Below the pieces are notes generated by a model. It did not search any database. It saw only the letters and a list, made by a program, of their open reading frames with translations, and was not told where the DNA came from. From Candidatus Edwardsbacteria bacterium RifOxyA12_full_54_48 (GTDB lineage: Bacteria > Edwardsbacteria > AC1 > EtOH8), in contig MFFN01000004.1 in assembly GCA_001777915.1 (NCBI GenBank), positions 351,632 through 415,631 of the forward strand: DNA of 64,000 nt. The letters are read 5' to 3'. Shown in pieces: positions 6,697 through 21,273 of the stretch. The translations under genes were made by a program, and so were the position numbers. Each line of letters starts with the position of its first letter. Position 1 is the stretch's first letter.

Positions 6697-7639
6697 GATC
6701 GCCCAGGCCCTGGAAAAGCACCGCCGGATAATGGTCACCAGCCATGTCAACCCTGACGGAGACAGCATCTCCAGCCAGCTGGCCCTGGCCTCGGTGCTTA
6801 AAACCCTGGGCAAGCGGGTGAGCATAATAAACCAGGACCCGGTGCCGGAGAGGTACCGTTTCCTGCCCGGCTGGGAGTCGATCTCCAGCCAGATGGGGGC
6901 CCCCGACGTCACCGCGGTCTGCGTGGTTGACTGCGCCAACCCCCAGCGCCTGGGCCAGGCGGCCGAGCTGATCACCCCGGCCACCATGGAGCTGATCGTG
7001 ATAGACCATCACGTCTCCAACGACGGCTTCGGGCATATCCAATACATAGACCCCGAAGCATCCTCCACCTGCGAGCTGGTCTACCGCATCTCCCAGAAAC
7101 TGGGAGTCAAGTTGACCGCCGAACAGGCCACTATCCTGCTATCGGGAATTATGACCGACTCCGGCGGCTTCCGCTATTCCAATACCTCTCCGGCCACCCT
7201 GCGAAGCGCCGCCCTGCTGATGGAGTCCGGGGCCGAGCTGGCCTGGATATCGGAACAGCTTTATTTCCAGCAGCCACTGAGACACCTTAAGGTGCTGGGG
7301 CAGCTGTTCTCCGACCTGAAGACCGCCGCCAACGGCAAGGTTTCCTGGGTGGCCCTGACCCAGGAGATAGCCCGAAGGCACGGATTTGACATCAACGACA
7401 GCGAGGAATTCGTCAGCCATGTGCTTTCGGTCAAAGGGGCCGAAGTGGGCCTGCTGTTCAAGGAGCAGGGCAACGGGATCGTGCGGGTCTCCTTCCGCTC
7501 CAAGGGCCGGGTGGACGTAAATAGGCTGGCAGCCATCTTCGGGGGCGGCGGACACCTCCAGGCCGCCGGGGCCAGGGTCAGGGGGTCGATTGACGAAGTG
7601 ACCAGAAAGGTGGTCCAGACGGTGGAGAGGGAGCTTTGA
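6683..7639 (+). CDS. nrnA: DHH-family oligoribonuclease / pAp phosphatase NrnA
   Basis: A 318-residue DHH-DHHA1 phosphoesterase. NrnA degrades nanoRNA and dephosphorylates pAp in the cytoplasm with Mn ions. Motifs in order are SHVNPDGDSISS (I), VVDCANP (II), IDHHVSND (III), MTDSGGFRYS (IV), and GGGGHLQAAGARV of the DHHA1 domain near the C-terminus. Its start lies inside the end of rbfA, indicating translational coupling. A small zinc-ribbon gene begins one base after its stop. Confidence 0.9.
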   Translation: MTASEIAQALEKHRRIMVTSHVNPDGDSISSQLALASVLKTLGKRVSIINQDPVPERYRFLPGWESISSQMGAPDVTAVCVVDCANPQRLGQAAELITPATMELIVIDHHVSNDGFGHIQYIDPEASSTCELVYRISQKLGVKLTAEQATILLSGIMTDSGGFRYSNTSPATLRSAALLMESGAELAWISEQLYFQQPLRHLKVLGQLFSDLKTAANGKVSWVALTQEIARRHGFDINDSEEFVSHVLSVKGAEVGLLFKEQGNGIVRVSFRSKGRVDVNRLAAIFGGGGHLQAAGARVRGSIDEVTRKVVQTVEREL

Positions 7640-8825: not shown

Positions 8826-10718
8826 ATGAAAAAACTTATTAGCCTGGCTTTATTGGTAGTCGTGGCAACGGTTATTGTCCAGGGCTGCGGAAAAAAGAGC
8901 GACCCGGTGGCCCCGCCGCCGACCCCCCCCACTCCGCCGACGGTGATCGCCGTATATCCGCCGGCCAGCAGCACGGATAATTTCAGGAACAGCCTGATAT
9001 ATCTGACCTTCAGCGCCGACATGAAGCAGACCGAGACCCAGAACGCCCTGGCCATAACCGGCATGACCGGCCAGAAGACCTGGTGGAACCGGATACTGAT
9101 ATTCCGGCCGGATTCGCTTTATACCCCCGGTGATACCATTCTGATAACGGTGTCCACCATCGCCCAGAACACCGCCGGCACCGCCCTGGCCGCGGTCTAC
9201 ACTTCTTCATTTATCTGCGGGGCCAACGCTGACAGCCTTCGTCCCACGGTGGTCTCCACCAATCCGGCCGGCGGCCAGACCGGGGTCAGCGCCACAGCCA
9301 GCATTTCGGCGACCCTTTCCGAGAGGCTGGCCCCCTGGTCGGTCTCGGCTTTTTCCCTGACCGCCGTTACCGGCATCTTGGGCAATGCCGCCCTGCAGAG
9401 CGACTCCATAATAAACTTTTCCCCCTCTTCGCTTCTTTGCTATGACATGACCTTCACCGCCATACTCGACACCAGCGTCACCGACCTGTGCGGAAACCAT
9501 CTATCGCCCCAGTATTCCTGGACCTTCCGAACCATCGCCGACACCGTCAAGCCCAAGGTTTTGTCGCTTGACCCGGCCAATAACGATACTTTGACCTCGG
9601 TGAATAAGCCAATAATCGTCAGATTCTCCGAGGTGATGGATACCGCCTCGGCCCGGGCCGCCTTTTCCATCACTCCTTCCGTTTCCGGAAATTTCACCTG
9701 GAGCGGGGATTCCATCATGACCTTCGCCCCGGCCGAGACCCTGGCCTTTCGCCGCCAATTCCAGGTGGCCATCGGCTCCGCCGCCCAGGACCTGGCCGGA
9801 AATCCCCTGGCCTCGGCCTGGAATTCCAGCTTCACCACCGTCCGGGGGATCTACGTCTGCTGTAACACCTCCAATGAGATATATATGTTCCAGCAGAACG
9901 ACCTAAAGCCCGAGGGCTATCTGACGTTTTATTCCAAGGCCAGCCAGATAAGAATTTCCTCCGATGACAGCATGGCCTATGTCCTTACGCAAAGCGGGTT
10001 GGAATTCATCCAGCTCAAGAACCACAACAATCATTTTGCCACCGTCACCCTGCCGGCCACCTGTTACGGGCTGGCCCTGTCCCCCAACGGCAGCCGCCTG
10101 GCGGTGACCGACACCCTTAACAAATGGCTGTATCTGATCGACGCTGTCACGGCCCAAAAGACGGATTCGGTCCAGACCGGGGCCGCCTTCCCCAAGGGGG
10201 TCTGGTTCAACCAGGGCAGCAGCCAGATCTGCGTCCTGTGCTGGGGACAGGTGGAGATATTCAGCGTCAGCAATCTGCACACCGCCCCCTCCACTGTCGT
10301 CATTCCCAACAACGGCGAGGAGGCCGTCAGGGGGATCTCCGGCGATACGCTTTATGTCTCTTCCGGCACCGGGTTCACCGCCATCAAGATATCCGACAAC
10401 TCCGTGCCCTTCCAGATAACCGGCATCAGCAACCATCCCTTCGGACTGGCGGTCTCGCCGGATCAGGCTCATGTGGCCCTGGCCTGTTATGAGGAGCATG
10501 CGGTGAAGATATACACCACTTCCGGAGCCTACGTCACCACCGTTTCGGTCGGCACCGGGCCCAAGGGCCTGGCCTACAGCCCGGACGGGAAATATCTGTA
10601 TGTCTCCAACTCCGGCAGCAGCTCTATTTCGGTCATCAGCCGGAACGACAATACCTACACCGCCCAGACACCAAAGACCGTTGGCAGCGGGCCGTGGGGG
10701 ATCGCAGTCACGCCGTAA
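8826..10718 (+). CDS. Surface lipoprotein with three Ig-like domains and a beta-propeller
   Basis: A 630-residue lipoprotein. The signal peptide ends at VQGC with the modified Cys at residue 21, and a Pro-rich spacer (PPPTPPTPPT) follows. Three SbsA/Big_5 Ig-like domains can be seen at roughly 38-130, 143-236 and 243-337, each opening with a V..xPa.g.. strand and containing an FS..M or LSERL segment. The last 290 residues are YVTN/NHL-type propeller repeats (SPNGSRLAVTD, SPDQAHVALA, SPDGKYLYVSNSG). It is probably exposed at the cell surface for binding. It immediately precedes the four LVIVD-repeat genes, 26 bp from the first. Confidence 0.8.
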   Translation: MKKLISLALLVVVATVIVQGCGKKSDPVAPPPTPPTPPTVIAVYPPASSTDNFRNSLIYLTFSADMKQTETQNALAITGMTGQKTWWNRILIFRPDSLYTPGDTILITVSTIAQNTAGTALAAVYTSSFICGANADSLRPTVVSTNPAGGQTGVSATASISATLSERLAPWSVSAFSLTAVTGILGNAALQSDSIINFSPSSLLCYDMTFTAILDTSVTDLCGNHLSPQYSWTFRTIADTVKPKVLSLDPANNDTLTSVNKPIIVRFSEVMDTASARAAFSITPSVSGNFTWSGDSIMTFAPAETLAFRRQFQVAIGSAAQDLAGNPLASAWNSSFTTVRGIYVCCNTSNEIYMFQQNDLKPEGYLTFYSKASQIRISSDDSMAYVLTQSGLEFIQLKNHNNHFATVTLPATCYGLALSPNGSRLAVTDTLNKWLYLIDAVTAQKTDSVQTGAAFPKGVWFNQGSSQICVLCWGQVEIFSVSNLHTAPSTVVIPNNGEEAVRGISGDTLYVSSGTGFTAIKISDNSVPFQITGISNHPFGLAVSPDQAHVALACYEEHAVKIYTTSGAYVTTVSVGTGPKGLAYSPDGKYLYVSNSGSSSISVISRNDNTYTAQTPKTVGSGPWGIAVTP

Positions 10719-10744
10719 GATAAAATTCAATGACAAGGAGACCT

Positions 10745-12937
10745 ATGTCCAAGAAGATTCTTCTGGGCATGATCATTCTTTTTGCCGCCCTTTCAGCCCG
10801 GGCCAATGACAGCCTTAATGTGCGATCTGTCGGTAGTTGGCCGTTCTACCGCTGCTTGAGCGTAGCGCTGGATACTACCACCGCTCAGAAACTAGCCATT
10901 ATGGGCACCGGCGGGGGGCTTTTTATTGCCGACATAACCGATCCTTTGCGCCCAAACAAAATCGGCGAAATAAACCTGAACGGCTCCTATAGCTACATAA
11001 TCAAAACCAGGGATCATTATGCGTATTGCCTTTCAGATAGTTTAGGTCTTTTAATTGTAGACTATTCCAATCCATACTCACCCGTACTGGCCGGACATTG
11101 TGCCTATAAAGAAGGAAAGAATCAAGCATTGGCCATCAGCGGAAACTATGCTTTCATTTGCATAAACTATTATGGCATAAAAATAATAGACATCACGGAC
11201 CCAACCAAACCAGTTGATAAAAATTATTACCCCTGCAACGATTTTAATATAGATATTCTAATAAAAGACTCTTTAGCCTATTTTGCGACATATGAGTTCA
11301 AAGTATTGAATATCAGCGATCCTGAAAACCCCGTTCAAATCTGGAATGATGATACACAATCCGGGCAGTTTGCGATATCCGATACTTTTTTGTATCTCGG
11401 TAGTGGAAGTATATATACATACAACATTTCTGAACCAGCTAATCCGGTTAAGGGCGGATCGGGAGGTACGGCCTACTTCGGTTTTTCGATATATGACACT
11501 CTGATCTTCGGCGGAGGAACTGGATTCAATGAAGGATTTTACATAAACAGCCTTTCCGATCCCAACAGCCCCGTAACAATAGGGCAATGTTCAACCAATT
11601 ATTTCAGAGGGTTAGCCGCTTATAACGGCTATGCCTATGTGGCTGACGACAGCAAAGGCTTGAAGGTTGTTGATATCAGCGATCCCGCACACCCCGTGAT
11701 AGTCGGTCATTGCCCCACACCAAGAAACGAAGATAACGGCATACTTTACCAAAATAATTATATTTACCTTCCGGCAATGGAAGGTGGCTTAAGGATGATA
11801 GATGTCTCCGATCCTTCCTCGCCGATCGAAACCGGCTGCTCATTTTACCCCAACAGAGAGAATCAAGCCCTTGCTGTGGTTGTCAGAGATACCATCGCCT
11901 ATGTATCAGACCGATCGAACGGGCTGAGGGTGATAAATATTACCGACAAAGCCAATCCTGCCGAGATCTGTTCTCTTTCCTTAAAAGGATATACTTATGC
12001 AATGGCTGACAAGGATACACTTCTGTTTATAGCCTTATGGCCGGAGTTTTTTAGCGGGGATTCTTCCAGCATCAGGGTGATAAATATTGCCGATCCGAAA
12101 AATCCCAGCGACATAGGTCATGTTTGCTTGCCGCGTGATGCCATGGATATTACGATAAAAGATAATAGTATGTTCGTTTCAACATTTAATACCACCCTGT
12201 CAACCATTGATATATCCGATCCTGCCAATCCGGTGATAACCTACAGTAACGACACATTGGGGTTGGGTTGGAACCAATCTTTAAAAGACACTATTTTATA
12301 TTTGGCTAATGATAATAAAGGGTTAAGCATAATCAACGTTGCCGATCCCATAAACCCCGTAAAGATCTCCTCAGTTCCTCCTTTTAGCCGCACTACCGGA
12401 GTATTCGTTGATTCCGGCTTTGCTTACATGGTGGATGATACCCTGGGGCTTAAAGTGGTCAATATCACAGATCCTTCAAATCCTATTGTTACCGGCTATT
12501 ACCTTTTCGATTACGATCCAATTTATGCTGTTATTTTTTTCCCCTATGTTGATGTGACAGCCAAAAATAATAATATATTCATCACCCACCCGGCCAATAT
12601 TCTCCAAGCTTTGGAATACTACGGCCCGGAGGCCGGTGTTTCTTCAGATAATATTGATAACGAAAAGAGACCCCTTATCTTCCTGCTAAAAGACGCCTAC
12701 CCCAATCCGGCCCGGAGCAGGGCGACCATCAGCTATCAACTGCCGGCCAAATCTACGGTCAGCCTGAATGTATATAATGTAGCCGGACAGCTGGTCCAAT
12801 CAACAGATATGGGCGCCCAGCAGCCGGGATATTATAATATTCCCTTTAAGACCGACAAACTTTCCTCCGGGGTATATTTTTATAAGCTGACGGCCGGAAG
12901 CAACAGCCGGACCAGGAAACTGGTGATTTTAAAATAA
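10745..12937 (+). CDS. LVIVD-repeat secreted protein with T9SS sorting domain (paralog 1)
   Basis: A 730-residue protein with signal peptide (cleavage near ARA-ND) and about 13 LVIVD repeats of the form GLKVVDISDPAHPVIVG, a beta-propeller-type family, followed by a type A T9SS C-terminal domain that opens at DAYPNPARS and ends KLVILK. Such tails direct export through the type IX system and surface attachment. Start at 10745 rather than 10730, because AAGGAG lies just before 10745. It is first of four tandem paralogs sharing the DSLNVR.VGSWP opening. Ligand or function is unknown. The T9SS machinery itself is not in this window. Confidence 0.85.
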   Translation: MSKKILLGMIILFAALSARANDSLNVRSVGSWPFYRCLSVALDTTTAQKLAIMGTGGGLFIADITDPLRPNKIGEINLNGSYSYIIKTRDHYAYCLSDSLGLLIVDYSNPYSPVLAGHCAYKEGKNQALAISGNYAFICINYYGIKIIDITDPTKPVDKNYYPCNDFNIDILIKDSLAYFATYEFKVLNISDPENPVQIWNDDTQSGQFAISDTFLYLGSGSIYTYNISEPANPVKGGSGGTAYFGFSIYDTLIFGGGTGFNEGFYINSLSDPNSPVTIGQCSTNYFRGLAAYNGYAYVADDSKGLKVVDISDPAHPVIVGHCPTPRNEDNGILYQNNYIYLPAMEGGLRMIDVSDPSSPIETGCSFYPNRENQALAVVVRDTIAYVSDRSNGLRVINITDKANPAEICSLSLKGYTYAMADKDTLLFIALWPEFFSGDSSSIRVINIADPKNPSDIGHVCLPRDAMDITIKDNSMFVSTFNTTLSTIDISDPANPVITYSNDTLGLGWNQSLKDTILYLANDNKGLSIINVADPINPVKISSVPPFSRTTGVFVDSGFAYMVDDTLGLKVVNITDPSNPIVTGYYLFDYDPIYAVIFFPYVDVTAKNNNIFITHPANILQALEYYGPEAGVSSDNIDNEKRPLIFLLKDAYPNPARSRATISYQLPAKSTVSLNVYNVAGQLVQSTDMGAQQPGYYNIPFKTDKLSSGVYFYKLTAGSNSRTRKLVILK

Positions 12938-12946
12938 GGATAAGCT

Positions 12947-15157
12947 ATGTTTAAAAAGATATATCTACTTTTGCTCCTTGGATTGGCCGTCTCTTCTGTC
13001 GCACATGCCGCCGACAGTCTTAACGTACGGACCGTTGGCAGCTGGCCGTTTGGCTATACATACTCTGCGGCCACCTGCAGTATAGGCGGCCACCATATTG
13101 CAATAGTCGATAACGACGGCGGCATTATGACTGTTAACATTGACACCCCAACTAATCCATACTGGCTGGGCGAAGCAAGGATAACTGGCCAAAGAACAAC
13201 CGACCTATTGGGCCATCACCGAAAGGCAAGAATATATGGAAATCACGCTTTTCTAGCTTTAGCCGAACTTGGTCTATGTATTATTGATATCAGCGATCCT
13301 GCAAACCCAAACATCTGCAATCAAATGTCGACGCCGGGTTATATCGTTGATATCGCTGTGCGTGGAAGCTACGCATATGCAGCCGACGATTCCTTTGGCC
13401 TTCGTGTCGTGGACGTATCTGATCCTTTCAACCCCGATACAGTAGCATTGGTGCCATCAACGGAAGGGTGCTATAGCCTGGCCATAAATGACACCTTGCT
13501 ATATATAATCAAACAAAACTGGCCAGATTTCATTCCAACAGTCCTGTCCTTTAATATTACCACGCCCAATAATCCAATATTTATTGATAGCCTGCAGTAT
13601 TTATGCGGTGGTTCTTTGGCAATCAAAGACACCTTGCTCCTCACTGGCGCGATGGATGTTTTGAATATAAGCAACCCAGCAGATATTTTTCTTATTACTT
13701 CCTTTATGCTTTCCGGCAACGGAGAAATAGCCATTCACGATACCCTAGCCTTTTGCCCCAATGTGGGCGGATTTGCTGGTTTATATATTACTTCCTTTTC
13801 CGATCCGGCCAACCCCTACATTATTACTTCTTATGATACTCCTGGTTATACTCGTGATATTTATTCTGATAACAATCTATTATACGTGTCGGACGACATA
13901 GGTGGGCTAAGGGTCATTGATATATCTTCACCTAACACTCCCATTGAAATAGGCGCTTTTAATTCGCCATCACCCGTATATGGCAATAACGTTATGTTGG
14001 CAAAGGATGACATACTTTACTACCCTACCGGTGATTTATATTCACTGGATGTTTCCGATCCCGCGGAGCCACACACCACCAAATGGGGAAAAGCTTTGGG
14101 TAATGCCCACGCCGTCGCTTTAAAAGATTCAATTATATTAACCATTGATGATGCATATGGATTTAAAGCAATGCAGGATGTTGGAAACAAATATTTATCG
14201 GTTGTTGACTCACTCCCCATGTCCAGTAGTAATTGTTGGGATATTTATTGTATGGATACCTTAGCTTTGGTTGCTTCTTCAGAAAGCCTTTTCGTAATCA
14301 ATGTATCAGACGCTGGAAACATTCATATAATTGGCCAGTGTGGCATACCGAACGCAACCTCTTATGCTGCGGCAGTTACCGCAACCAGCCAATATGCCTA
14401 TGTGGCTGCAGGCACCTCAGGTTTTTATATTGTGGATCTCTCAAATTTAACAAACCCAGAGATAGTTGACACTATCAATATTGGTATGGTCTGGGACCTA
14501 ACCATCGATAAAGATATTTTATGCTTGGCTAACGATTTAAATGGATTATTGCTGATGAATATAGACATACCCGACAGCCCCAAGGTGTTAAGCGTCTTTG
14601 ATACATCAGGAAAAGCTATGGCTATTACCGTGGATTCACTTTTTGCATATTTGGCCGATGACTCGGCCGGATTGAGGATCATTGACATCAGCGAACCTAC
14701 CAATCCGTTTGAAACAGGTTACTATGCAATGGAAACCGTCTCCTTTCCTTTAAACAATAGGGCTGTTGGCGTGGCAGTTGGAAATGGTAATATCTTCGTA
14801 TCGCACTATGCCGCTGGTTTAAAAGTTTACCAATACTATGGCCCGGACGCAGGGATCTCAACCGATGATCATGACAAAGACATAAACAGGCCCCTCACCT
14901 TCCTGCTGAAAGACGCCTACCCCAACCCTGTTCGGAGCAAGGCCACCATCAGCTATCAACTGCCAGCCAAGGCCGAGGTCAAATTGAACCTTTACAATAT
15001 AACCGGACAGCTGGTCCGATCAACAGATCTGGGCACACAGCCGCCGGGATATTACAATGTGCCTTTGAAGACTGACAAATTATCTTCGGGCGTTTATTTT
15101 TACAAGCTGACGGCCGGAAATGACAGCCAGACCAGGAAACTGGTGATTTTAAAATAA
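12947..15157 (+). CDS. LVIVD-repeat secreted protein with T9SS sorting domain (paralog 2)
   Basis: A 736-residue paralog beginning 9 bp after the previous stop. Signal peptide ends near AHA-AD, followed by the family opening DSLNVRTVGSWPF. About 12 LVIVD-type repeats can be counted (for example VSDPFNPDTVA, ISEPTNPFETG). The sorting domain runs from DAYPNPVRSK to KLVILK. The DNA from the end of paralog 1 through its start (AAATAAGGATA.GCTATG then TTTAAAAAG) is almost repeated before paralog 3, marking the duplication unit. In the tail this gene shares a distinct sequence variant with paralog 4. Confidence 0.85.
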   Translation: MFKKIYLLLLLGLAVSSVAHAADSLNVRTVGSWPFGYTYSAATCSIGGHHIAIVDNDGGIMTVNIDTPTNPYWLGEARITGQRTTDLLGHHRKARIYGNHAFLALAELGLCIIDISDPANPNICNQMSTPGYIVDIAVRGSYAYAADDSFGLRVVDVSDPFNPDTVALVPSTEGCYSLAINDTLLYIIKQNWPDFIPTVLSFNITTPNNPIFIDSLQYLCGGSLAIKDTLLLTGAMDVLNISNPADIFLITSFMLSGNGEIAIHDTLAFCPNVGGFAGLYITSFSDPANPYIITSYDTPGYTRDIYSDNNLLYVSDDIGGLRVIDISSPNTPIEIGAFNSPSPVYGNNVMLAKDDILYYPTGDLYSLDVSDPAEPHTTKWGKALGNAHAVALKDSIILTIDDAYGFKAMQDVGNKYLSVVDSLPMSSSNCWDIYCMDTLALVASSESLFVINVSDAGNIHIIGQCGIPNATSYAAAVTATSQYAYVAAGTSGFYIVDLSNLTNPEIVDTINIGMVWDLTIDKDILCLANDLNGLLLMNIDIPDSPKVLSVFDTSGKAMAITVDSLFAYLADDSAGLRIIDISEPTNPFETGYYAMETVSFPLNNRAVGVAVGNGNIFVSHYAAGLKVYQYYGPDAGISTDDHDKDINRPLTFLLKDAYPNPVRSKATISYQLPAKAEVKLNLYNITGQLVRSTDLGTQPPGYYNVPLKTDKLSSGVYFYKLTAGNDSQTRKLVILK

Positions 15158-15166
15158 GGATACGCT

Positions 15167-17338
15167 ATGTTTAAAAAGATATATCTATCTTTCCTACTGG
15201 TCGCATCCTTTTCGGGCCTGGCCTATGCCTCGGCCGACAGCTTAAGGATGCGGACCGTCAGTTCATGGCCGTACAGCATTAACGCCGCAACTGCGGCGGC
15301 GACCATCAATGGTCATGATTACCTGCTGGCCGGCATGGGCGGCGGCATATTCATTTTCAACATCGATTCTCTGGACGCACCATATAAGGTATCCGAGGCC
15401 GCCACGCAAGCCAGTTATATAAAAGACATCGCCGTAGCCGGAGATTATGCATACCTGGCAGCGTCAGATTGCGGTTTATGGATTTTGGATATCAGCGACC
15501 CATTAAATCCCTACGTGACCGGCAATGTCGATCTTCCTGGTTATGCGGTTCAGGTCAGAATAAATAACAACCACGCTTTTGTCGCTTCCTGTTTTTCCGG
15601 CGTCCGAATCGCAAACATATCCGATCCCTACAATCCTTACGAAGCTGGCTATCTTGACAATGGTGACTATTTTTACGGCTTAGATGTCAACGATACCCTG
15701 CTTTACACCGCAGGAATGACAAACGGATTAAAGATTTACAACATATCTTCTCCTGCCATGCCAGTTGAAATAGGATACAATGACAGCACCAGCGATCTTC
15801 GCTGTGTTTATTATAAAGGGGGCTATCTTTATGGCGGCAATACTGCGGAAACGGTAATATTTGATGTGTCTGACCCGACAAATCCGGTTATTACCGGCAC
15901 TGGCGGCTATGGCGCTTATAGAATGGCCATCTTGGACACTATTATTTATGGGACTATCAATAGTTACTTTTATTCCACGATCAACATCAGTGATCCTTCC
16001 TCCCCAGTTCTGGTTGAAACCAATCCCACCGATTGGTTCGCTACATTTGTAACAATATTTAAGAACCGATTGATTGTCACCACCGAAAAATATTTTTCCC
16101 TTCAGGATATCACCGATCCAGTAAACCCCGTAGAAACCTATCGCTTTGACTGCCCTGTTATCTACGGTACAGGCGCAGTCAAAGACAGCTTTGCTTACAT
16201 GCCTTCGGATTACATTCATATCATCAAAACAACAGAAACCCAGTACCTCCAAGAAGTGAGTTCTGTTAAAAGTATTGCCAGCGGTTTTTCCAGTATTTGT
16301 ATAAAAGATTCCTTAGCATACTTGCCTGATTTCATTTATGGCTTGCAGGTGATCAACATAGCCGATCCCTATAATCCTATCGTTCTGGATTCGGTATATT
16401 GCGCGGGTTTTTGCAATTATGTAGCGATAACGGATTCTTTTGCTCTTTTAACACAATATAACAATATTAAGGTGATCAATGTCTCCGACCCTTCCAACAT
16501 ATTTGTTGTTGACTCGTTTATAACAAACGACATAGCCTATAACATATGTATTGACGGTTCGCTGGCCTATCTGGCAAATAGCGGTTATGGGTTGCGCATT
16601 TACGATATTACCAATCTTCCCGCCATAACAGAGATAGGTTATTATGACACCCCCGGGACGGCTCTTTATGTGGCTGTCCAGAATGGAATGGCTTATGTGG
16701 CCGACGGAGACAGCGGTATGCGCATAATAAACGTCTCCGAATCAACAACCCCTGTCGAGCTGGGACACTTTGTGATACCGAACCCGGAAGATATGTTCTA
16801 CGGCGCCAACTCGCTGGCCGTCAAAGACAGCCTGGTCTATATCTCCTATGATACCTTGGGGGTCAGGGTCGTCAACGTTTCAGATCCCGCCAATCCTACG
16901 GAATCAGGCTATTATAAAAAGATCCCCTGGAGTTCTTATAACTTTGGATGCAGCGCCAACGGTCTGACTTTGGCCGACAATAAGGTTTACGTCTCTTACT
17001 ACCAATACGGCCTGCAGGTGTTCGAATACACCAGCCCCAGCGGGGTGACAAACAATAAGAACGAGAGCAGGATATCTTCATTTCTGTTGAAAGAAGCCTA
17101 CCCCAACCCAGCCAGAGGAAAGGCCACCATCAGCTATCAACTGCCGGCCAAATCTACGGTCAGCCTGAATGTATATAATGTGGCAGGACGGTTGGTCCAA
17201 TCAGTGAATATGGGAACCCAACTGCCGGGATATTACAATATTCCATTGAAGACCGACAAACTTTCCTCCGGGGTATATTTTTATAAGCTGACCGCCGGAA
17301 GCAACAGCCAGACCAAGAAACTGGTGATTTTAAAATAA
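15167..17338 (+). CDS. LVIVD-repeat secreted protein with T9SS sorting domain (paralog 3)
   Basis: A 723-residue paralog, 9 bp after paralog 2. It carries a signal peptide (AYA-SAD), the opening DSLRMRTVSSWPY, about 13 LVIVD repeats and the sorting domain from EAYPNPARGK to KLVILK. Its repeat region differs substantially from its neighbours, while parts of the tail are identical at DNA level to paralogs 1 and 4 for more than 50 bp. This suggests exchange between tails with free divergence of the exposed part. Confidence 0.85.
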   Translation: MFKKIYLSFLLVASFSGLAYASADSLRMRTVSSWPYSINAATAAATINGHDYLLAGMGGGIFIFNIDSLDAPYKVSEAATQASYIKDIAVAGDYAYLAASDCGLWILDISDPLNPYVTGNVDLPGYAVQVRINNNHAFVASCFSGVRIANISDPYNPYEAGYLDNGDYFYGLDVNDTLLYTAGMTNGLKIYNISSPAMPVEIGYNDSTSDLRCVYYKGGYLYGGNTAETVIFDVSDPTNPVITGTGGYGAYRMAILDTIIYGTINSYFYSTINISDPSSPVLVETNPTDWFATFVTIFKNRLIVTTEKYFSLQDITDPVNPVETYRFDCPVIYGTGAVKDSFAYMPSDYIHIIKTTETQYLQEVSSVKSIASGFSSICIKDSLAYLPDFIYGLQVINIADPYNPIVLDSVYCAGFCNYVAITDSFALLTQYNNIKVINVSDPSNIFVVDSFITNDIAYNICIDGSLAYLANSGYGLRIYDITNLPAITEIGYYDTPGTALYVAVQNGMAYVADGDSGMRIINVSESTTPVELGHFVIPNPEDMFYGANSLAVKDSLVYISYDTLGVRVVNVSDPANPTESGYYKKIPWSSYNFGCSANGLTLADNKVYVSYYQYGLQVFEYTSPSGVTNNKNESRISSFLLKEAYPNPARGKATISYQLPAKSTVSLNVYNVAGRLVQSVNMGTQLPGYYNIPLKTDKLSSGVYFYKLTAGSNSQTKKLVILK

Positions 17339-17354
17339 TTACTTAAGGGAGCTT

Positions 17355-19556
17355 ATGTCCAAGAAGCAAATTCTGGGCATATTCTTGCTGCTGTCAGGTC
17401 TTTCGGCCCATGCCACTGACAGTCTTAACGTAAGGACTGTTGGCAGCTGGCCGTATGGTTTGAGCCGTGCGATCGCGGTAGATTCCATGGACGGCCACAG
17501 ATACGCCTTTACCGGTTTCGGCGGCGGGATATTCATTTTTGACGTGGATACTCCGTCAATGCCGGTCAAGATCGGCGAAGTCGCCACAGACGGATATATG
17601 ATCCATCAAATTGTAATAAACAACGGCCATGCCTATCTGGCCTGTTATGATAAAGGCCTGTGGATAGCGGATATCAGCGACCCACACAAACCTACCATCA
17701 CCGGCAACTGTCCGCTTCCGGGGTTGGCGGTGGATCTGGCGATATCTGGCGGCTTTGCCTACGTGGCCGGTGATACGACAGGGCTTTTTGTTGTCGACAT
17801 TTCCGACCCCGTTGCGCCGGCATTGGCTGGTAGTTATAATGATGGCGGCTGCGTATGGGGCATACGGGTCAGGGATACCATTGCCTATGTGGCCGACGGT
17901 GACAGCGGACTATCCCTGCTGAACATAAAAACACCTGGGATCATCAGTGAAATAGGCCGTTATAATGCCGTATATGCCTCTTATGTTAGCCTAGCCGGTC
18001 GCTATGCCTATATTTCTAGTGTGCCTTGGAATTATGGCAGCACTGATGTTATTACGGTCGTGGATATCGGCAATCCAGCCAACCCATTGTTTGCCGGATC
18101 GGGCGGGGAGGCCGCCACCCGGGTTGAAATTTATGATTCATTGGCATTCAGCGGAGCATATAATAATTATCAGATATTTATCAATACCATTTCAGATTCC
18201 ACGCACCCTCAGCTTAAGCAGAATTACACTTCCAGCGAATGGGGCAATGCCTGGCATTTTGCTTATTCGCCGGGTTACATTTATGTAGCAGATGAACGCA
18301 GGGGCATGGTAATATACGATATTTCTAATCCTGCAAACATATTAGAGATCGGCCAATACCAAGTGCCAAATTTCATTACCCTTGCTGTGGCTGATAGTCA
18401 TGCGTACCTGCCTTCCTACGGATTAAGGGTACTTGACGTGAGTGTTCCAACCAGTATTACCGAGCAAGGTGTCTGTTTTTTAGATACCAGCAATCACTTC
18501 GGGGCCTTGTGGGATGTTGATGTCAGGGATTCATTGGCCTACGGCCTGCCGGGTGATTCCACTATGCTTACATTCAACGTGAAAAACCCATATACGCCCC
18601 AAATAGTTCATACCCTTACGTTACCAGTTAAGTATGTATATTATTTTACCATATGTGATACGTTCGCCTATATTTCAAGCGATACCGGTTTAATATTTGT
18701 AAATATTGCCGATCCGGAAAGTCCGTTTGTAATAGGGCAATACCACGGTATTGCTGATCCTGTGAATATGACCGTCCGGAATGGCGTTGCCTTTGTGGCT
18801 GATTATTACGCCGGCCTAAAAATAATTGATGTCAGCGACCCGGCAGCACCGCATGAGATCGGACATTGCGATATAACGGGGGATGTGATTGATGTCGCAA
18901 TAGAAGATACTTTCGCCTACATTACCGCCATGAATAACGGTTTGCGGATAGTGAACATCGCTGACCCAAGCAATCCGTTTGAGGTCGGTAATTTCCAGAT
19001 GTCTGCCGATTCGTGGATAGGCGCATACGGTGTAGAAATAAAAAATAATTTAGCCTACGTAGCCTGGGATACCTTTGGGGTTAGGGTTATTGATGTCGCT
19101 GATCCAAACAATCCGATAGAGATAGGTTATCATGATAATAACTCAAGCCCGTATTACACTTTGGCCTGGGATATAAAATTGTACGATGGTTATGTGTATG
19201 TGGTTTATGAAAACTGGGGTCTTCAAGTCTATGAATACTACGGCCCGGAGGCCGGTGTTTCTTCAGATAATATTGATAACGAAAAGAGATCCCTTGTCTT
19301 TCTACTAAAAGACGCCTACCCCAACCCAGCCAGAAAAAAGGCCACCATCAGCTATCAACTGCCGGCCAAATCTACGGTCAGCCTGAATGTATATAATGTA
19401 GCCGGACAGCTGGTCCGATCAATGGATATGGGCGCCCAGCAGCCGGGATATTTCAATATTCCATTGAAGACTGACAAATTATCTTCGGGCGTTTATTTTT
19501 ACAAGCTGACCGCCGGAAGCAACAGCCAGACCAAGAAATTTATCGTTTTAAAATAA
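17355..19556 (+). CDS. LVIVD-repeat secreted protein with T9SS sorting domain (paralog 4)
   Basis: A 733-residue paralog, 16 bp after paralog 3, with GGGAG before the ATG. Like paralog 1 it starts MSKK and has the opening DSLNVRTVGSWPYG; about 13 LVIVD repeats follow (VSDPAAPHEIG, VADPNNPIEIG). The linker YYGPEAGVSSDNIDNEKR before the tail is the same as in paralog 1, so 1 and 4 are related over this stretch, while the DNA near 19465-19510 matches paralog 2. The last residues (KFIVLK) differ slightly from the other three. recN follows after only 10 bp. Confidence 0.85.
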   Translation: MSKKQILGIFLLLSGLSAHATDSLNVRTVGSWPYGLSRAIAVDSMDGHRYAFTGFGGGIFIFDVDTPSMPVKIGEVATDGYMIHQIVINNGHAYLACYDKGLWIADISDPHKPTITGNCPLPGLAVDLAISGGFAYVAGDTTGLFVVDISDPVAPALAGSYNDGGCVWGIRVRDTIAYVADGDSGLSLLNIKTPGIISEIGRYNAVYASYVSLAGRYAYISSVPWNYGSTDVITVVDIGNPANPLFAGSGGEAATRVEIYDSLAFSGAYNNYQIFINTISDSTHPQLKQNYTSSEWGNAWHFAYSPGYIYVADERRGMVIYDISNPANILEIGQYQVPNFITLAVADSHAYLPSYGLRVLDVSVPTSITEQGVCFLDTSNHFGALWDVDVRDSLAYGLPGDSTMLTFNVKNPYTPQIVHTLTLPVKYVYYFTICDTFAYISSDTGLIFVNIADPESPFVIGQYHGIADPVNMTVRNGVAFVADYYAGLKIIDVSDPAAPHEIGHCDITGDVIDVAIEDTFAYITAMNNGLRIVNIADPSNPFEVGNFQMSADSWIGAYGVEIKNNLAYVAWDTFGVRVIDVADPNNPIEIGYHDNNSSPYYTLAWDIKLYDGYVYVVYENWGLQVYEYYGPEAGVSSDNIDNEKRSLVFLLKDAYPNPARKKATISYQLPAKSTVSLNVYNVAGQLVRSMDMGAQQPGYFNIPLKTDKLSSGVYFYKLTAGSNSQTKKFIVLK

Positions 19557-19566
19557 CCTTTTAGTT

Positions 19567-21273
19567 ATGCTTAAAAAACTCACCGTAAAAGATTACGCCC
19601 TGATAGATTCCCTGGAGGTGGAGTTCTCCCCGGGCCTCAATATCCTCACCGGGGAGACCGGGGCGGGAAAATCCATCCTGATCGGCGCCCTGGGCCTGGT
19701 GCTGGGCGAACGGGCCGACAGCGACAGCGTCCGCAGTGGCGCCAAGGCCGCCATGGTGGAGGCCGAATTCCACCTGACGGATCTTGGCGCCGTAAAGACG
19801 ATCTTCGGCGAATTGGACATCGACTGGTCCGACGAACTGCTGATCCGCCGCGAGGTGTCCCCGGCCGGCAAGAGCCGGGCCTTTGTCAACGACAGCCCGG
19901 TCACCCTGGCCAATCTTAAAAGGATCGGTGACGCCGTGCTGGACATGCACGGCCAGCACGAGCACCAATCCCTGCTCTACGAGGAGCGGCATCTGGATTA
20001 TCTGGACGGCTTTGCCAAGACCCGGCCGGAACGAACAGCCGCCGGAGAACTTTTTCACCAATACCAGAAGATCAGATCAGAACTGGAGGCCTTGCGGAAC
20101 AAGGAGCAATTGACCAGGGAAAAGCTGGACCTGTATAATTTCCAGATAAAGGAGATCGGATCGGCCTCGCTGGCCGAAGGCGAAGAGGAAGGGCTGGAAA
20201 GCGAAAAGACCATTCTGGAGAATTCCGAAAAGCTTTTTTCGCTGGCCTCGGCCGGCTATCAGCTTTTATACCAGCAGGACGGCTCCATCACCGAGCAGTT
20301 CAGCGCTTTGGAGCGGTCGGTGGAGGAGATCGCCGGGATCGATCCCCGCCTGGAATCTACTTTGAAGGCCGTAACTTCGGTGAACGACCAGATCGAGGAG
20401 GTCGCCCGGGACCTGAGAAAATACCGGGACGGCATCTCTTTCGATCCCCAGCGGTTGGAGGAGATCCGCAACCGGCTGGACCTGATCAGGACCCTCAAGA
20501 AAAAATACTCCGGCCGGGAGAATTCCATAACCGCCGTTTTGGCCCATTACGAAAAGATCAAGGCCGAAGTGGATTCGGTGGAGCACGGCGAGGAGAATAT
20601 CAAAAAACTGGAGGTCCAATTGGAAGCCCAGCGCCGGGACCTGGAAAAGGCCTGTCTGGCATTGTCTGAGAAACGCCAAGCGGCGGCCAGGAAGATGGCC
20701 AGGGATGTGGTGGCCCAGCTGAAGGACCTGGGAATGGAAAAGGCCGCCTTCAAGGTTGATGTGGCCCAGGTCGAAGAGGCCGAAGGCATTGTCCACCACA
20801 ATAAAAAGCAGCTTAAAGCCGACGCAACGGGCATCGATTCCGTACGGTTTTTGATATCCCCCAACCCCGGCGAGGAATTAAAGCCCCTGGCCAAGATCGC
20901 CTCCGGCGGCGAGATCTCCCGGGTGATGCTGGCCATCAAGACCATCTTATCGGAGGCCGACGCCGTCCCGGTGCTGGTATTCGACGAGATCGATGCCGGG
21001 ATCGGTGGCCGGATCGCCGAGGCGGTGGGAGTAAAGCTCAAGGAGATTTCCTCGGCCCGGCAGGTGCTGTGCATCACCCACCTGCCGCAGATAGCCTCTC
21101 TGGCCAAGAGCCACTTCCTGGTCAGCAAGGATGAGCAGAAGGGCCGCACCATCACCTCGGTGAATGTCTTAAGCGAAAAGGAGAGGATCGAGGAGATCGC
21201 CCGAATGCTGGGCGGCAGCAAGATCACCGAGACCACCCTGAAGCATGCCAGGGAGATGATCGAGAAACAGTAA
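19567..21273 (+). CDS. recN: DNA repair protein RecN
   Basis: A 568-residue SMC-like ATPase of recombinational repair that acts at double-strand breaks. Walker A is GETGAGKS (residues 29-36), followed by MHGQHEHQSLL, a central coiled coil (about 150-370), the signature SGGEISRVMLAIK, and Walker B VLVFDEIDAGIGG. Length is normal and the C-terminus is complete, ending IEKQ. There is no visible Shine-Dalgarno; it begins 10 bp after the fourth LVIVD gene. About 610 bp downstream lies a diverged copy of its last ~56 bp. Confidence 0.95.
   Translation: MLKKLTVKDYALIDSLEVEFSPGLNILTGETGAGKSILIGALGLVLGERADSDSVRSGAKAAMVEAEFHLTDLGAVKTIFGELDIDWSDELLIRREVSPAGKSRAFVNDSPVTLANLKRIGDAVLDMHGQHEHQSLLYEERHLDYLDGFAKTRPERTAAGELFHQYQKIRSELEALRNKEQLTREKLDLYNFQIKEIGSASLAEGEEEGLESEKTILENSEKLFSLASAGYQLLYQQDGSITEQFSALERSVEEIAGIDPRLESTLKAVTSVNDQIEEVARDLRKYRDGISFDPQRLEEIRNRLDLIRTLKKKYSGRENSITAVLAHYEKIKAEVDSVEHGEENIKKLEVQLEAQRRDLEKACLALSEKRQAAARKMARDVVAQLKDLGMEKAAFKVDVAQVEEAEGIVHHNKKQLKADATGIDSVRFLISPNPGEELKPLAKIASGGEISRVMLAIKTILSEADAVPVLVFDEIDAGIGGRIAEAVGVKLKEISSARQVLCITHLPQIASLAKSHFLVSKDEQKGRTITSVNVLSEKERIEEIARMLGGSKITETTLKHAREMIEKQ

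Follow-up and report, generated by a model that had tools for sequence, protein, structure and literature searches.

What keeps the 3' ends of neighbouring genes alike when the rest of each gene has diverged is the question raised by a tandem array of four genes in a 64,000-nucleotide stretch of DNA (hereafter the window; positions 351,632 to 415,631 of contig MFFN01000004.1, assembly GCA_001777915.1) from Candidatus Edwardsbacteria bacterium RifOxyA12_full_54_48. The genes, here numbered 1-4, occupy positions 10730-19556 of the window on the forward strand, code for 723-736 residues each and are separated by spacers of 9, 9 and 16 nucleotides (nt). Each protein has a signal-peptide-like start, a passenger made of LVIVD repeats and a sorting tail of the type IX secretion system (T9SS). 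Our results indicate that repeated homologous recombination among neighbouring T9SS cargo genes, for the most part gene conversion, has very probably kept the tails alike. The data demonstrate that the tails are of later ancestry than the passengers, that they are mosaics, that homogenisation took place independently after speciation, and that tail sharing depends strongly on neighbourhood.

The proposal in a first-pass annotation of this DNA that the array codes for four LVIVD proteins with T9SS tails agrees with the domain profiles, as genes 1-4 score 146.6, 130.6, 94.8 and 210.4 bits for the LVIVD family PF08309 (cut-off 20.2), 51.3, 53.7, 55.0 and 53.8 bits for TIGR04183 (cut-off 23), and 48.9, 51.1, 52.7 and 52.4 bits for PF18962 (cut-off 27). 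With these domains above curated cut-offs, the four are predicted type A T9SS cargo. All four stay under the 100-bit cut-off of the choice-of-anchor B model TIGR04312 (95.5, 61.6, 56.2 and 96.5 bits). The predicted structure of gene 4 is all-beta, of low confidence (a predicted local distance difference test score, pLDDT, of 61), and its Foldseek matches are mostly tandem propellers with low template-modelling (TM) scores. In the host genome (G000; 2.74 Mb, 9 contigs), a search for the secretion machinery that covered SprA and PorU found both, SprA at 344.4 bits (sum over the pieces of a single frame; cut-off 200) and PorU at 623.9 bits (cut-off 420).

The passengers of the four genes are only 30-35% identical in protein to one another, and the DNA identity of all pairs in 90-column windows is 25-71% before the tail and 62-97% within it (alignment columns from 2040). 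The longest exact shared blocks measure 73 nt (genes 1/4), 63 nt (3/4), 56 nt (1/3) and 47 nt (2/4), which bears out the earlier description of strongly different repeat regions followed by tails with long identical DNA. In the linker, a 57-nt identical block (at 12614 and 19233) groups gene 1 with gene 4, as had been noticed from the start. Further on, the 16-nt variant AAACTTTCCTCCGGGG occurs in the window only at 12857 and 17258, in genes 1 and 3, and its counterpart AAATTATCTTCGGGCG (16 nt) only at 15077 and 19476, in genes 2 and 4; the positions of this reported 1+3 and 2+4 split are exact, although the variant stops short of the end of the sorting domain, where the last codons group the genes in another way. 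The likeness runs beyond the coding sequence, the junctions 1|2 and 2|3 having 58 nt in common, with one mismatch, that cross the stop codon and the spacer into the next gene. The first ~40 codons are somewhat alike among the four genes, and there the grouping is mostly 1+4 and 2+3 (11 of 18 sites that divide the genes two against two). In 176 T9SS genes from three genomes no outside donor of the two 3' variants was found, the best other gene matching 22 of 27 bases.

Such two-against-two sites support the three possible groupings in numbers of 98, 87 and 71 before alignment column 2030 and of 8, 8 and 10 after it; in the ungapped tail block, which is slightly shorter, 25 sites divide into 8, 8 and 9. 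Along the tail they form runs, beginning with six sites for 1+4 and with eight consecutive sites for 1+3 against 2+4 further on, and this clustering was equalled in 17 of 100000 shuffles of their order. The first-pass annotation had named a single consistent tree along the genes as the observation that would speak against gene conversion; what was found instead is conflicting signal, clustered along the copies, for which a single-tree account of the tails fails. In 1000 simulations on each of three trees fitted by maximum likelihood, none gave at least eight sites for all three groupings, the run of eight alone being reached in 2-3.4% of them. GENECONV-type tests, the recombination check proposed at the time, were significant in four of the six pairs (global p: 3/4, 0 of 20000; 1/3, 0.0019; 1/4, 0.0042; 2/4, 0.029), and pairs 1/2 (p 0.66) and 2/3 (p 0.059) were not significant after correction. 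Synonymous change in the passengers is saturated, with no finite estimate of synonymous divergence (dS) in any of the six pairs, and tail dS is 0.31-0.86, so that the common ancestors of the tails must be later than those of the passengers.

A second locus provides the clearest view of homogenisation after speciation. T9SS genes were taken from two further genomes of the same genus, G002 (58 of 94 matches) and G003 (43 of 68 matches), and among the sampled genes of these and of G000 there are 61 reciprocal best passenger pairs. One neighbouring pair (C6:204609/207315) is present in all three genomes; each of its passengers is 75-83% identical between species, while one passenger shows no relationship to the other (global alignment, 20-25%). 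Over the last ~185 codons, dS between the two genes is 0.037 within G002 and 0.139 within G003, to be compared with a passenger dS of 0.75-1.0 between species. The tail tree joins both genes within G002 (support 100/100) and within G003 (96/96), and all nine gene-wise trees are rejected by the approximately unbiased (AU) test, with p <=1.3e-5 for the 185 codons and <=1.9e-5 for the last 88. Paralogous tails are therefore closer to each other within a genome than orthologous tails are between species, and homogenisation must have happened separately in the two species with gene order unchanged. The grouping of paralogues is limited to G002 and G003, as the tails of the pair in G000 are no longer close (dS 0.83).

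Together, the mosaic tests, the dS contrast and the concerted evolution at this second locus support the recombination between tails that the earlier proposal of gene conversion implied. Its other half, non-reciprocal copying, we infer, and it would be done by RecA-type recombination between the stretches that remain similar; the gene order kept at the C6:204609/207315 pair is consistent with such a transfer. Under gene conversion, passengers would go on diverging while neighbouring tails are homogenised. The tail, with its stop codon, the short spacer and the next start, would alone retain enough similarity over a long stretch for pairing, which would confine exchange to the tail region, and patches of tail copied from one copy to another would give mosaics with a boundary at the passenger start. 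Unequal crossing-over within the array would also make mosaic tails, while reshuffling passengers and yielding changes in gene number as its main product. Across gene junctions the tail, spacer and next start form one continuous block, so that crossovers would keep the reading frames, and hagA and kgp of Porphyromonas gingivalis recombine to deletions, according to the parts of PMC9328147 considered here. However, the syntenic pair keeps both passengers and their order in three species despite its homogenised tails, and dispersed genes share tails as well, which makes crossing-over possible but unlikely as the main process.

We also considered whether selection, rather than exchange, might account for the likeness of the tails. 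The analyses of G000 used all of its 75 tail matches, the four of the array included (another model counts 81). The other 71 tails have at most 55% amino-acid identity to the tail of gene 1, and tail DNA identity between genes of this genome has a median of 0.49 and a 99th percentile of 0.67 (2775 pairs). Between orthologues of the three congeneric genomes, tails evolve no slower than passengers: the median nonsynonymous divergence (dN) is 0.106 for tails and 0.122 for passengers (34 of the 61 reciprocal pairs, those with body identity of at least 70%, dS being available in 33; Wilcoxon p 0.42). Purifying selection on the sorting signal with no recombination could in principle make tails alike, the tail having a defined function and the residues of the sorting domain being conserved. 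But synonymous sites are alike too, and both the tail dS and the three-species tree contradict this explanation, as do the conflicting site patterns, the low identity among the other tails of the genome and the dN comparison. We regard it as extremely improbable, and as the sole cause of tail likeness it was rejected on the diverse tails, the mosaic sites, the tail dS and the dN values.

A different role for selection had been suggested by the first-pass annotation, in which conversion is favoured because it keeps the export signal uniform and lets the exposed propellers vary. The pattern of uniform tails and variable passengers is real. Nevertheless, very different tails coexist in G000, so that export would not need tail uniformity, tails change no slower than passengers, and the shared DNA takes in the stop codon and the intergenic spacer. 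This part of the earlier interpretation is not supported, and we consider selected conversion improbable; recombination at any stretch of remaining DNA similarity suffices to explain the pattern, for which no selective benefit is necessary. GC-biased conversion was also tried as a signal and rejected. The G+C content at third codon positions (GC3) of the tail minus that of the body has a median of +0.048 in genes with similar tails (n=31) and -0.011 in the others (n=136; p 0.0006), but +0.07 is also seen in 31 other genes whose bodies are AT-rich, and the shift is thus no specific evidence for conversion.

The dependence on neighbourhood was measured in pairs with diverged passengers (under 45% identical, with bodies of at least 120 amino acids after trimming), neighbours being genes on the same strand within 6 kb, or 7 kb for G054, a far relative rich in T9SS genes. 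With a threshold for tail sharing of 0.75, chosen after viewing the identity distribution, tails are shared in 14 of 38 neighbouring pairs and in 10 of 4966 others in G000, G002 and G003 taken together (Fisher p 2.6e-25, which is only a guide because gene pairs are not independent). Without the array the figures are 9 of 33 and 9 of 4965. Two more distant genomes were sampled among genes lying in clusters, G006 of another genus (44 of 75 matches) and G054 (49 of 150). In G006 an LVIVD pair has a body dS of 1.37 and a tail dS of 0.35. In G054 none of 29 neighbouring pairs share tails, so that T9SS genomes do not all show the neighbour effect. The assemblies of G003 and G054 are fragmented, and their contigs may break at identical tails.

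Several results weigh against conversion between neighbours as the whole account. In G006 tails are shared in only 3 of 31 neighbouring pairs (0 of 915 others), and in G000 only 1 of 12 neighbouring pairs without detectable passenger homology shares its tails (p 0.078 with tails permuted). The dS of 0.3-0.9 in the array tails implies that most exchanges there are not recent. Eight pairs in G000 with tails of at least 0.75 identity lie beyond 7 kb or on other contigs, and such dispersed sharing is left unexplained by neighbour conversion. In a dispersed family of 12 tails the passenger tree is well resolved and the tail tree hardly so; one orthologue tail clade is rejected (p 0.029) and two are not (p 0.37 and 0.27).

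Individual pairs in G000 illustrate the range of combinations. C4:842912 and C6:37127, on different contigs, have unrelated passengers (26%) and tails with 89% DNA identity, so that exchange is not only local. The LVIVD-passenger gene C8:20638 and its neighbour C8:22787 have tails 96% identical in DNA and passengers 37% identical in protein. The reverse pattern is found in C4:422721 and C4:425922, with 74% protein identity in the passengers against only 62% in the tails, as though one of the tails had been exchanged for another.

If new genes arose as a passenger fused to a resident tail, young fusions with little later exchange might be enough to account for shared tails. The near-identity of the C8:20638 and C8:22787 tails would fit such a capture, as would the lack of a reciprocal best partner for the C8:20638 passenger among the G002 and G003 genes sampled, and the array passengers, whose GC3 is unlike that of the flanks. 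Yet capture yields no mosaic tails, and it would not homogenise long-standing syntenic neighbours once the species had separated; as a general explanation it seems doubtful to us. A broader possibility, which we put forward tentatively and with a good deal less confidence than gene conversion between neighbours, is that the T9SS tail is a recombination module in this candidate phylum, exchanged as a unit between unrelated passengers, both neighbouring and dispersed. Passenger and tag would then have separate phylogenies, and new genes for surface proteins, those of the array among them, would establish themselves through pairing with a tail already present.

Concerted evolution of multicopy genes is well known from rRNA operons, in which the copies within a genome are more alike than orthologues; in the present case homogenisation affects protein genes at their ends only, the rest of each gene being different. 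The passenger repeat is that of the LVIVD family of surface proteins (PF08309), from which the array differs in its four highly diverged tandem copies with T9SS tails. The conserved end of the PE/PPE proteins of Mycobacterium tuberculosis carries the secretion signal. Recombination and gene conversion have been reported for them (PMC4770551), and, as far as the parts of that paper examined allow a comparison, they too form large families of secreted proteins in which one end is conserved and the remainder variable. Their conserved end is N-terminal, however, they use another secretion system and are very close paralogues, and no species-by-species concerted evolution of the signal is described in those same parts. 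The closest parallel is found in P. gingivalis, where, in the portions of the reports considered, the 3' ends of hagA and kgp, which code for the sorting domain, are virtually identical and are sites of homologous recombination (PMC9328147), and where domain rearrangement and allelic exchange of surface proteins are described and gene conversion is proposed (PMC5266723). What the two systems have in common is recombination of T9SS cargo genes at the 3' ends coding for the sorting domain; hagA, kgp and rgpA are a few related genes of one pathogen, with deletions and allelic exchange, whereas the present study covers many pairs, with passengers that are sometimes unrelated, and tests the tails across species.

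In the literature on T9SS recombination, conversion and concerted evolution that was searched, which left most subscription journals uncovered, we found no tail homogenisation outside the gingipain work. The same search returned no earlier report of concerted evolution, checked across species, that is limited to the sorting tails of otherwise unrelated cargo. Sorting tails serve to find and classify T9SS cargo. If genes exchange them, a similar tail tells of neighbourhood and recombination rather than of shared ancestry or a shared export route. Here a secretion tag and its passengers are seen evolving apart in uncultured bacteria.

Table 1. Features of the array and its flanks (window positions)
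Feature	Position	Strand	Basis or remark
Gene 1, LVIVD passenger and T9SS sorting tail	10730..12937	+	open reading frame (ORF), domain profiles
Gene 2, LVIVD passenger and T9SS sorting tail	12947..15157	+	ORF, domain profiles
Gene 3, LVIVD passenger and T9SS sorting tail	15167..17338	+	ORF, domain profiles
Gene 4, LVIVD passenger and T9SS sorting tail	17355..19556	+	ORF, domain profiles
Gene 1 shared tail block (linker, sorting domain, stop)	12614..12937	+	alignment
Gene 2 shared tail block, most divergent of the four	14831..15157	+	start counted from alignment
Gene 3 shared tail block, linker divergent	17024..17338	+	start counted from alignment
Gene 4 shared tail block	19233..19556	+	57 + 73 nt identical to gene 1, 63 to gene 3, 47 to gene 2
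Junction block 1|2 (end of tail, stop codon, spacer of 9 nt, start of next gene)	12910..12967	+	differs from 15130-15187 at one base
Left flank, Big_5/YVTN lipoprotein-like gene	8826..10718	+	domain profiles, synteny with relatives
Right flank, recN	19567..21273	+	homology, synteny with relatives

For gene 1, an internal ATG at 10745, the start given in the first-pass annotation, is an alternative. As regards the origin of the array, GC3 is 0.41-0.49 in its passengers and 0.78 in the flanks, and the distance of the passengers to an LVIVD protein of G006 is about as great as their distance to one another. In a passenger tree with G006 proteins, the four are unresolved with one of these, and holding the four together is not rejected (p 0.17). 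The low GC3 and the passenger distances are consistent with a set that was diverse before it was gained, and equally with duplicates that diverged fast. Another LVIVD gene, 43% identical to gene 4 and with a signal-peptide-like start, is located in G003 (contig C1, stretch L158, 48-914, minus strand); no sorting tail was seen in it, the ORF ending 48 bases from the contig end.

The lipoprotein-like gene on the left, with Big_5 domains and YVTN-type repeats, adjoins recN in relatives across the family. In all seven relatives in which this junction is readable, no match to genes 1-4 lies between the two; one further relative has recN without the lipoprotein gene on its stretch, and another has no recN match. 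The array would accordingly have been either gained at this site in the G000 lineage or lost in every readable relative. One relative (L070) has about 120 nt alone at the junction (7164-7287), and another (L069) a 359-codon ORF (8850-10001) that looks by eye like a tetratricopeptide repeat (TPR) protein. With different cargo per species, the junction (10718-19567 in the window) may be an insertion hotspot.

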